Shown here in pieces: positions 3,528 through 6,257 of a stretch of 32,773 bases of DNA. The position numbers were made by a program, and so were the translations under genes. The stretch is taken from assembly GCA_017478205.1 (NCBI GenBank), contig JAFVDZ010000007.1, forward strand, positions 1 through 32,773, read 5' to 3'. The stretch's first letter is position 1; every line of letters begins with the position of its first letter. The notes under the pieces were generated by a model. It made no database searches. It worked only from the letters and a program-made list of their open reading frames with translations, and had not been told where the DNA came from. The DNA comes from Spirochaetales bacterium. GTDB lineage: Bacteria > Spirochaetota > Spirochaetia > Sphaerochaetales > Sphaerochaetaceae.

Positions 3528-4514
3528 ATGCAGATAATCTTAAAAAACCTGAAGCGCTACTATGGAGACCTCCATGCAGTAGAGGATGTATCGCTTACGA
3601 TACCATCTAATACAATATATGGAATCATAGGAAAGTCTGGAGCAGGAAAATCTTCCCTTGTCAGACTTGTTAGCATGCTTGAAAAGCCAGATGCTGGTGA
3701 AATCTACTACGATGACAAGAGAATCGATACTCTCGAAGGTAACGATGTAATTCAAGAGAGAAGAAAGATTGGTATGATCTTCCAGAACTTCAATCTCTTT
3801 TCGTCAAGAAATGCTGAACAGAATATCGCATACCCAATGGAAATATGTGGTATGAGCAAGGAACATATCAAGAAGCGCTGTGCGGAGCTTTTGGAAGTTG
3901 TTGGTCTTGCAGGCAGAGGCGATGCTCCTATTTCCACTCTTTCTGGCGGTCAGAAGCAGCGTGTTGCAATTGCTAGAGCACTTGCTTGTGAACCTGAAAT
4001 CCTCTTCTGTGACGAGGCAACCAGTGCCCTCGATCCTCAGACAACTAGAGCAATTTTGGCACTCATCAAAGAGATTCAGAAGAAGATGAGCCTCACTGTT
4101 GTTATGATCACACACCAGATGGAGGTTGTAAGAGACTCATGTAGCAGAGTTGCAGTCCTTGAGTCTGGACAGGTTGTCGAAGAAGGAAAGGTTACTGATA
4201 TCTTCGCTCATCCTCAAAGTGAAGTCACAAAGGACTTCCTTTCAAATGTAAAGATCAGCAAGAAAGATATCATTCGCTGGTCCAAGGAAGGTGGCAAGTA
4301 TCGCCTTGGTTTCAGAGGTGGAAAGACTGATGATGTTGTAATAAGCAAGGTCACGAAAGAGACTGGGGCAATGTTCAACATCAGAGCTGCGGGAATTCAG
4401 GATGTCGATGGAGAGAAGATCGGTGTAATGATTGTCGATATCGATCCAGAACACGCTGATGTAGCAGTAGAAGCTCTCATCAAGGGCGGAGTTAGTGTGG
4501 AGGAGACCAAATGA
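3528..4514 (+). CDS. metN: Methionine ABC transporter, ATP-binding protein MetN
   Basis: This is the ATPase of the MetNIQ importer, acting at the inner face of the membrane. Counted from the ATG at 3528, Walker A GKSGAGKS is at 35-42, the Q-loop at FQNFN (~85), the signature LSGGQ at 138-142, and Walker B ILFCDE at ~158-163. Residues ~250-328 form the C-terminal NIL regulatory domain, which in MetN binds methionine and inhibits transport. An ATG at 3522 is also in frame but touches the aggag at 3517-3521. The second ATG at 3528 has the ideal 6-base spacing, so it is taken as the start. The 3' end overlaps metI by ATGA. Confidence 0.95.
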   Translation: MQIILKNLKRYYGDLHAVEDVSLTIPSNTIYGIIGKSGAGKSSLVRLVSMLEKPDAGEIYYDDKRIDTLEGNDVIQERRKIGMIFQNFNLFSSRNAEQNIAYPMEICGMSKEHIKKRCAELLEVVGLAGRGDAPISTLSGGQKQRVAIARALACEPEILFCDEATSALDPQTTRAILALIKEIQKKMSLTVVMITHQMEVVRDSCSRVAVLESGQVVEEGKVTDIFAHPQSEVTKDFLSNVKISKKDIIRWSKEGGKYRLGFRGGKTDDVVISKVTKETGAMFNIRAAGIQDVDGEKIGVMIVDIDPEHADVAVEALIKGGVSVEETK

Positions 4515-5176
4515 ATCAGCAGTTAATGAATCTTGTAATGAAGGCAACAGGTGAGACTCTGACAATGGTCTCTCTCTCAACCGTATTTTCTCTCCTTCTT
4601 GGACTTCCAATAGGTGTACTGCTCCATGTAACAAGCAATGAAGACCAGGGAGGAATTATTCCAAACCCTGTGCTTAATAGTGTGCTTGGAAGAATCGTAA
4701 ACGTTTTAAGATCGTTTCCTTTCATCATCTTGATGATTCTCCTCATTCCTCTTTCAAGAGCAATTGTGGGAACAAGTATTGGAACAAAGGCAACTATCGT
4801 GCCTCTTTCAATTGCTGCAGCACCATTTGTTGCAAGAATCATCGAAAGTGCACTTAAAGAGGTCGATCCAGGAGTTATACAGGCAGCTAGAGCTATGGGT
4901 TCTACAAATTGGCAGATAATCATCAAGGTCATGATTCCTGAAGCCATGCCAGCTCTCGTTTCTGGTATCACTCTTACAATCATCAATCTTATCGGTTACT
5001 CTGCAATGGCTGGAGCAATCGGAGGTGGTGGTCTTGGAGACTTGGCAATCCGTTATGGTTACCAGCGCTTCAGACCAGAGTACATGATCTGCTGTGTTGT
5101 CATTATCCTTGTACTTGTCGAGGTCATTCAGGTAATTGGTAATAAGATAGCAGGCAAGATGCTCTCAAGAAGATAA
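4511..5176 (+). CDS. metI: Methionine ABC transporter, permease MetI
   Basis: This 221-residue integral membrane protein has about five hydrophobic segments. The binding-protein-dependent permease (EAA) motif EVDPGVIQAARAMGSTNWQI lies at ~118-137 and contacts MetN. The family is normally 210-230 residues. Its ATG lies inside the metN stop (ATGA at 4511-4514), so the two are translationally coupled, and the ribosome-binding stretch tggaggag lies at the end of metN. A strong terminator follows at once, separating it from metQ. Confidence 0.95.
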   Translation: MNQQLMNLVMKATGETLTMVSLSTVFSLLLGLPIGVLLHVTSNEDQGGIIPNPVLNSVLGRIVNVLRSFPFIILMILLIPLSRAIVGTSIGTKATIVPLSIAAAPFVARIIESALKEVDPGVIQAARAMGSTNWQIIIKVMIPEAMPALVSGITLTIINLIGYSAMAGAIGGGGLGDLAIRYGYQRFRPEYMICCVVIILVLVEVIQVIGNKIAGKMLSRR

Positions 5177-5198: not shown

Positions 5199-5240
5199 TT
5201 GTTGCAATACTGGAAAAAAGTGTTGCAACAATTTTTTTTT
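5199..5240 (+). terminator. Intrinsic terminator after metNI
   Basis: Ttgttgcaat (5199-5208) pairs with gttgcaacaa (5222-5231) in 10 bp with one wobble, around a 13-base loop. It is followed by nine Ts (5232-5240). It closes the metN-metI unit. Its right arm also contains the proposed -35 box of the metQ promoter. Confidence 0.75.
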
Positions 5241-5251
5241 GTAACTAATAT
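5223..5251 (+). promoter_or_regulatory. Proposed promoter of the leader peptide-metQ unit
   Basis: TTGCAA (5223-5228) and TAATAT (5246-5251) are separated by 17 bases, close to the sigma-70 consensus. The predicted start of transcription is near 5258, only about 20 bases before the leader-peptide ATG. GTTGCAA occurs twice, 21 bases apart (5201 and 5222), two helical turns, and could also be a regulator site. The box overlaps the metNI terminator, so both readings are possible. Confidence 0.5.
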
Positions 5252-5276
5252 AAGCCTATCTTATAGGAGGTAATAC

Positions 5277-5339
5277 ATGAATTCATTTTTTATTTCTCTC
5301 ATGTGCTTTACCTCTATGATGTGCCCTTGCAGGGCATAA
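5277..5339 (+). CDS. Met/Cys-rich 20-residue leader peptide upstream of metQ
   Basis: An ATG at 5277 follows a near-perfect ribosome-binding site (ataggagg at 5263-5270) and opens 20 codons ending in TAA at 5337-5339. Met occurs at positions 1, 9, 14 and 15, and Cys at 10, 16 and 18, so over a third of the peptide is sulphur amino acids. That is far above chance and sits directly upstream of a methionine-uptake gene. The end of the gene forms a hairpin (tgccc 5322-5326 with gggca 5332-5336). Bases 5308-5317 (ttacctctat) are complementary to its own ribosome-binding site with one bulge. The likely role is control of metQ by ribosome stalling when Met or Cys is scarce. The expression signals are seen; the function is inferred. 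Confidence 0.65.
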   Translation: MNSFFISLMCFTSMMCPCRA

Positions 5340-5387
5340 TATATTCATTTTAAAAATCAAACACATTTTATCAATTTAGAAAAAATT

Positions 5388-5400
5388 CGAGCGTTGCTCG
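5388..5400 (+). promoter_or_regulatory. Hairpin in the metQ leader
   Basis: Cgagc (5388-5392) and gctcg (5396-5400) form a perfect 5-bp stem around gtt, in the AT-rich stretch between the leader peptide and metQ. The following bases (tattgtatatt) are too poor in T to call it a clear terminator. It could be part of a control structure. Confidence 0.4.
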
Positions 5401-5453
5401 TATTGTATATTAACAATCAAAATATCAAATTAAAGATATAGGAGATAATCAAA

Positions 5454-6257
5454 ATGAAAAAAATAGCTGCTGTATTGCTTATCGCACTTATTGCTGTTTC
5501 CCTCTTTGCTGGTGGTGCTTCTGAAAAGAAGTCTGAAAGTGTCATCAAGATCGGTGCAACCCCTGATCCACATGTACCTCTTCTTCAGCTCGTTGTTGAA
5601 GACCTTGCAAAGGAAGGCTACAAGCTTGAAGTTATCGAGTTCACTGACTATGTAACTCCAAACGAAGCTCTCGAGTCTGGTGATTTGGATGCTAACTTCT
5701 TCCAGCACATCCCATACCTCGAATCCTTTAATAATGAAAGAGGTTTCCACCTTGTAAATGCTGGTGGTGTACATGTAGAACCAATCGCTCTCTATTCCAA
5801 GAAGCACAAGGCTCTCTCTGATCTCCCAAACGGTGCAACAATTGCTATTCCTAACGACCCAACCAACGAAGGTAGAGCTCTTCTCCTTTTGCAGAGTGCT
5901 GGTCTCATCACTCTCAAGGATGATGCTGGTCTTGAAGCTGTTCCAGCTGACATCAAGACAAACACTAAGAATCTCAAGTTTGTTGAAATCGAAGCTGCTT
6001 CTCTTCCAAGAACATATGCTGATGTAGATGCTGCTGTCATCAATGGTAACTACGCTATCCCAGCAGGTTTGATCGCAACCAAGGATGGCCTCTTTGTTGA
6101 AGGTGCTGATTCCCCATACGTAAACGTCATCGCAGTCAAGGCTGGTAACGAGAACAATCCTGGTATCGTCGCTCTTGTAAAGGCTTTAAAGACTGACAAG
6201 GTCGCCAAGTATGTTGCAGAGCACTATCCAAATGGTGAAGTTGTACTCGTAAAGTAA
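5454..6257 (+). CDS. metQ: Methionine-binding protein MetQ
   Basis: This is the extracytoplasmic substrate-binding component of the MetNIQ importer (NlpA/MetQ family, 267 residues). After an export signal (positive MKK, hydrophobic core ~4-19) the mature part starts at IKIGATPDPHVPLL. The motifs YVTPNEALESGDLDANFFQH (~62-81) and PNDPTNEGRALLLLQ are typical of the family. Most MetQ proteins are lipoproteins, but here the signal ends SLFAGGASEKK with no cysteine, so it should be cut by signal peptidase I or stay anchored. The start has a strong site, ataggagataat (5438-5449). It is separated from metNI by a terminator and has its own leader. Confidence 0.93.
   Translation: MKKIAAVLLIALIAVSLFAGGASEKKSESVIKIGATPDPHVPLLQLVVEDLAKEGYKLEVIEFTDYVTPNEALESGDLDANFFQHIPYLESFNNERGFHLVNAGGVHVEPIALYSKKHKALSDLPNGATIAIPNDPTNEGRALLLLQSAGLITLKDDAGLEAVPADIKTNTKNLKFVEIEAASLPRTYADVDAAVINGNYAIPAGLIATKDGLFVEGADSPYVNVIAVKAGNENNPGIVALVKALKTDKVAKYVAEHYPNGEVVLVK

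Follow-up and report, generated by a model that had tools for sequence, protein, structure and literature searches.

The metI-metQ interval and its short leader frame

The interval between metI and metQ was analyzed in a 32,773-nt stretch of contig JAFVDZ010000007.1 from a Spirochaetales bacterium, referred to below as the window. Two genes of a methionine ABC transporter flank a short open reading frame (ORF), and the following features were located.

4511-5176, + strand: metI, methionine ABC transporter permease (profile match)
5199-5231, + strand: terminator-like hairpin of 13 pairs followed by the T-run TTTTTTTTTG, at the end of metNI (hairpin scan)
5223-5251, + strand: predicted metQ promoter, TTGCAA (5223-5228), 17 nt, TAATAT (5246-5251), recognized by eye
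5265-5270, + strand: AGGAGG, the Shine-Dalgarno sequence of the leader (SD1), with the expected 5' end of the mRNA about 7 nt away
5277-5339, + strand: leader ORF of 20 aa, MNSFFISLMCFTSMMCPCRA; the same kind of frame is kept in 82 genomes
5308-5317, + strand: ttacctctat, anti-Shine-Dalgarno (anti-SD) element inside the leader ORF, directly before and into the Met codons
5316-5324, + strand: Met-Met-Cys codons, Met-Met-Met in most relatives
5320-5338, + strand: hairpin across the leader stop codon, core TGCCCT-TGC-AGGGCA; TGCCC-nnnn-GGGCA in relatives
5340-5375, + strand: tract 3' of the leader stop, G-poor, U-rich and then C/A-rich; possible anti-RBS or Rho site
5388-5400, + strand: small hairpin CGAGC-GTT-GCTCG between leader and metQ (hairpin scan and RNA folding)
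5438-5449, + strand: ribosome-binding site (RBS) of metQ (from the sequence)
5454-6257, + strand: metQ, methionine ABC transporter substrate-binding lipoprotein (profile match)

The leader peptide of the window contains four Met residues (the start included) and three Cys residues, metQ starts at 5454, 114 nt past the leader stop, and the RBS strings of the leader (ataggaggtaat, 5263-5274) and of metQ (ataggagataat, 5438-5449) are one base apart. A preliminary description of this DNA had reported the same 20-codon frame, Shine-Dalgarno sequence, residue counts, gap and one-base difference, and all of these coordinates were verified. The fold of the RNA from 5257 to 5470 was better than that of 199 of 200 shuffled sequences (z -3.2), and in its best structure SD1 is paired with 5308-5317 and the stop codon lies in the hairpin. 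Rfam searches at gathering and relaxed thresholds returned nothing relevant, SAM riboswitches and the T-box being unmatched, in agreement with the earlier statement that no SAM-riboswitch pattern is visible at the locus.

Transcription of metQ is predicted, by eye, to start near A5258. The promoter that the preliminary description had placed before the leader finds support in a promoter-like sequence at the same place in relatives (e.g., TTGCAT-17-CATAAT), but is absent from the list produced by a stricter consensus scan of the window. Its -35 element falls on the 3' side of the stem of the metI terminator hairpin (5199-5231). The promoter spacer upstream of the leader is also conserved in many relatives, such as loci L112-L124, as TTGCATA-ctcTTGCAg-ttttATGCATAAT, and its TGCAT repeats could be the operator of a regulator.

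Distribution of the leader and the genes that follow it

The sample comprised 139 genomes of one spirochaete family, many of them metagenome-assembled, and a search with MetI yielded the metI-metQ spacers of most relatives. A covariance model placed the leader at 93 loci in 82 of the 139 genomes, belonging to 8 genera, and with it the small frame, Met codons and self-pairing seen in the preliminary description proved to be conserved. Weak family matches at E of at least 0.012 are not part of this count, having been set aside as false after reading showed them to be starts of signal peptides or of other coding sequences. A comparable leader ORF was present in all 47 metI-metQ spacers of 120-520 nt, among which the window is entered twice (L001 and L002), and in none of the 40 spacers of up to 120 nt. 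One set of loci (A1) had initially been chosen by a pattern demanding a Shine-Dalgarno sequence and the stop hairpin. Among named members of the family, Candidatus Ornithospirochaeta carries the leader; Sphaerochaeta is without it.

A model search of 80 metQ loci, including those of Treponema, detected no leader outside the family, and among 393 genomes across the phylum real matches were confined to family members; two further matches, at E 0.0017 and 0.0087, came from other families and were rejected as false on proving to be coding starts. One pattern scan of viral contigs also gave no leader. The leader sequences are not independent, because all members come from one bacterial family. The joint occurrence of the frame, Met run, self-pairing and stop hairpin in 82 genomes is far more than chance would produce.

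The leader is not restricted to the metI-metQ interval. Taking the names of downstream genes from NCBIfam and Pfam matches, it also precedes a second MetQ/NlpA-type protein (L146-L150, L159 and L161), metN (L151), metY (L154), metA (L160) and, in two genomes of one genus, an oligopeptide-type binding protein of the SBP_bac_5 family (L152 and L153). These copies before both uptake and synthesis genes mark a predicted methionine regulon. The SBP_bac_5 protein is a candidate transporter of methionine-containing peptides. At L155, a leader-like frame, MNISSFATKYLLSSMCISMLMPGRA, stands before a gene of the iron-containing alcohol dehydrogenase family, which has no known methionine role. The second MetQ-like protein has about 300 aa, and the two parts of its match to the MetQ/NlpA profile are exchanged: at L146, residues 29-157 align with profile positions 131-257 and residues 198-298 with positions 32-132. 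This order suggests circular permutation of a methionine-binding protein.

The window's genome, rated 97.5% complete, contains no match to MetE or MetH, and methionine uptake is therefore probably needed. Judging by its gene content, the host is likely a methionine auxotroph relying on uptake.

Constraints on the peptide and on the RNA

The leader peptides resemble each other only at their end, where a Met-rich stretch, usually MMMSSMMMP, is followed by x-R/W/G-A and the stop; the N-terminal half is not conserved. The frame was open in every locus read, and its length, 17-25 aa, differs by whole codons. In 76 leaders, Met made up 26% of the residues after the start, with a median of five besides the start and at least three in all 76. 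Cys accounted for only 3.6%, which marks the Cys codons in the window as a local variant; of the Met/Cys signal put forward in the preliminary description, the Met part was supported and the Cys part was not. Two to four Met codons lie between the anti-SD element and the hairpin, and single ones are swapped for Cys, Leu or Arg, exchanges that pairing does not demand.

The complementarity of SD1 to the anti-SD element before the last Met run was followed across species. The native duplex had -15.4 kcal/mol, against -12.5 kcal/mol with partners swapped between species, and was the better one in 45 of 51 cases; in 50 of the 51 its stability also exceeded the mean for synonymous recodings. Double-change cells between the two strands numbered 46, compared with 30.3 +/- 4.1 in shuffles, and the covariation score reached 0.237 versus 0.191, every slid register scoring lower. 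Ser codons beside the Met run and anti-SD element were TCC or TCT in 109 of 114 instances, compared with about 40% in the downstream genes, which suggests selection to maintain the pairing. Comparison thus shows that both compensatory and synonymous changes maintain the pairing.

The stop hairpin TGCCC-nnnn-GGGCA is present even where the frame ends early within it (MMMP*; L087, L101 and L102), and is therefore not there for the amino acids that it encodes. Both the RNA and the coding content of the leader are thus constrained. Other consensus hairpins further downstream (GGTCCC..GGGAC and ACGG..CCGT) were considered and discarded as clade-specific only.

Candidate mechanism, alternatives and known systems

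The locus shows the features of the amino-acid-sensing leader class: a short ORF with a start codon, a Shine-Dalgarno sequence and a run of the regulated amino acid's codons; a position before uptake and synthesis genes of the same amino acid; and an overlap of the ORF with a conserved pairing that ribosome position could alter. The comparative data favor, as the probable reading, a cis-acting, methionine-specific (Met-codon-sensing) leader peptide. The tiny Met-packed gene looks like a previously undescribed methionine sensor acting through translation.

In the mechanism proposed, the metQ mRNA would begin a few bases 5' of the strong SD1 of the approximately 20-codon frame. With charged Met-tRNA plentiful, the ribosome would pass the Met run, the anti-SD element would re-pair with SD1, and the leader would close, keeping the downstream gene low. 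With Met-tRNA short, the ribosome would stall at the Met codons with its body over the anti-SD element, leaving SD1 open and raising the downstream gene. A methionine leader would be a special case, as the initiation of all proteins also draws on Met-tRNA. The last step is the weakest; in its preferred form, an open SD1 and leader ribosomes would relieve downstream repression by competing for a pyrimidine tract able to hold the downstream RBS, by shielding the 5' end of the mRNA, or by both. Translation, Rho and mRNA stability are candidate output routes. The chances appear evenly balanced for the fuller proposal that this is the first methionine-specific and the first spirochaete leader-peptide regulon, where an anti-SD element under the stalling codons would let the sensor ORF repress its own initiation; starvation would then hold the leader open, as positive feedback, and switch on the genes for uptake and synthesis. 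The unit is compact, would mark the methionine regulon of poorly studied gut spirochaetes, and illustrates the logic of a leader shutting its own ribosome-binding site.

Folding simulations are consistent with the first part of this scheme, as the unpaired fraction of SD1 rose from 0.21 in the free RNA to 0.40-0.42 with a ribosome footprint at either Met run. The downstream Shine-Dalgarno sequence showed a small and inconsistent change across the simulated states. The tract after the leader stop contains about 1% G from +3 to +11 at 76 loci, and C rises to as much as 36% just beyond. It forms 5.9 pairs with the downstream RBS, compared with 2.6 when the whole spacer is shuffled, but the excess is gone when the same 32 nt of the tract are shuffled (z +0.22); the pairing survives this shuffle and therefore reflects composition only, not base order. 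The tract could hold the downstream RBS, as a compositional possibility only.

A Rho site in this tract is the main rival to such a role. Attenuation of transcription, dependent on Rho or on a hairpin, would have the stop hairpin, together with the pyrimidine-rich, G-free tract after it, terminate transcription early unless leader ribosomes prevent it. The base composition of the tract is consistent with this, as are the presence of rho in the window's genome and an interval between leader and metQ that, on the + strand, has no canonical intrinsic terminator save the weak CGAGC hairpin. However, the conserved stop hairpin has no adjoining U-run, the U-rich tract beginning about 5 nt past it, unlike in an intrinsic terminator, and a stall before the stop codon offers no evident way of protecting the tract with the right sign. 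This alternative is possible but unlikely. The intrinsic terminator/antiterminator pair of a classical transcription attenuator was not found between leader and metQ in the window.

Arrest by the nascent peptide, with the ..S-M-M-M-P end sensing methionine or SAM in the ribosome tunnel, is distinctly unlikely. The Met run is almost always followed by Pro, some leaders stop there (MMMP*), and Pro before the stop is common in arrest peptides; however, CCC also serves as the 5' strand of the stop hairpin, and this role by itself accounts for the Pro, and the number of Met codons varies from two to four with Cys, Leu or Arg replacing single ones.

The preliminary description had instead proposed that ttacctctat pairs with both RBSs and switches between them. 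The near-identity of the two strings in the window speaks for such an alternation, as do the 3.8 pairs that the anti-SD element forms with the downstream RBS when SD1 is masked, compared with 2.8 in spacer-shuffled controls. Pairing with the leader's own site was borne out (-12.3 kcal/mol), but that with the metQ site reaches only -4.5 kcal/mol, weaker than for 13 of 17 unrelated RBS regions of the window, and the metQ RBSs of relatives are unlike SD1. In relatives, the element co-varies with SD1. A simulated stalled ribosome masking the anti-SD element raised accessibility of the metQ site at 24 of 76 loci and lowered it at 10. The alternating switch is very unlikely.

That the ORF is incidental to a thermosensor or a small-molecule riboswitch is highly improbable: the conserved sequestration of SD1 recalls SAM riboswitches that mask a Shine-Dalgarno sequence, but no Rfam model matches, the codons aside, there is no visible conserved core of unpaired bases, and the leaders differ by whole codons with the frame open at all loci read. 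A peptide acting in trans, such as a metal-binding one, would suit the Met/Cys-rich composition and is barely conceivable given the variable N-terminal half and the link of the unit to methionine genes and RNA-level pairing.

RNA control of methionine is known through SAM riboswitches and T-boxes, and to our knowledge no leader peptide based on Met codons is known. Literature searches found no Met leader peptide described; subscription papers lay outside their coverage, so that the methionine-sensing leader is likely, though not proven, to be novel. Naville and Gautheret (2010; PMC2965389) noted that, prior to the Firmicutes case they presented, there were no amino-acid leader peptides outside Proteobacteria and Actinobacteria, and the spirochaete leader falls outside the groups with such leaders reported by then. 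It resembles the enterobacterial-type hisL, pheL and trpL in being a short ORF, rich in codons of the regulated amino acid, at the mRNA start of its metabolic genes, but differs in the amino acid, in that no intrinsic terminator/antiterminator pair was found, and in the sequestration of SD1 by the leader's own coding sequence. In Actinobacteria, Seliverstov and colleagues (PMC1262725) described Cys and Leu leaders and none before methionine operons. Those Cys leaders and the LEU element share with the present one the lack of an evident terminator, the involvement of either a sulphur amino acid (Cys) or RBS pairing, and a proposed role of Rho; however, the spirochaete leader concerns methionine in a different phylum, and the Leu run of the LEU element pairs with the Shine-Dalgarno sequence of the downstream gene, whereas the spirochaete leader pairs with its own. 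The erm and cat translational attenuators are similar in that a stall in a leader ORF re-pairs RNA masking ribosome-binding sites, but their signal is an antibiotic, and no consistent masking of the downstream RBS emerged from the simulations of the spirochaete leader. The S-box (SAM-I), SAM-III and met T-box likewise control methionine uptake or synthesis genes through RNA, but the leader matches no Rfam model. No SAM-I riboswitch occurs in the window's genome; they are present in 19 of the 139 family genomes, several of which also carry the leader.
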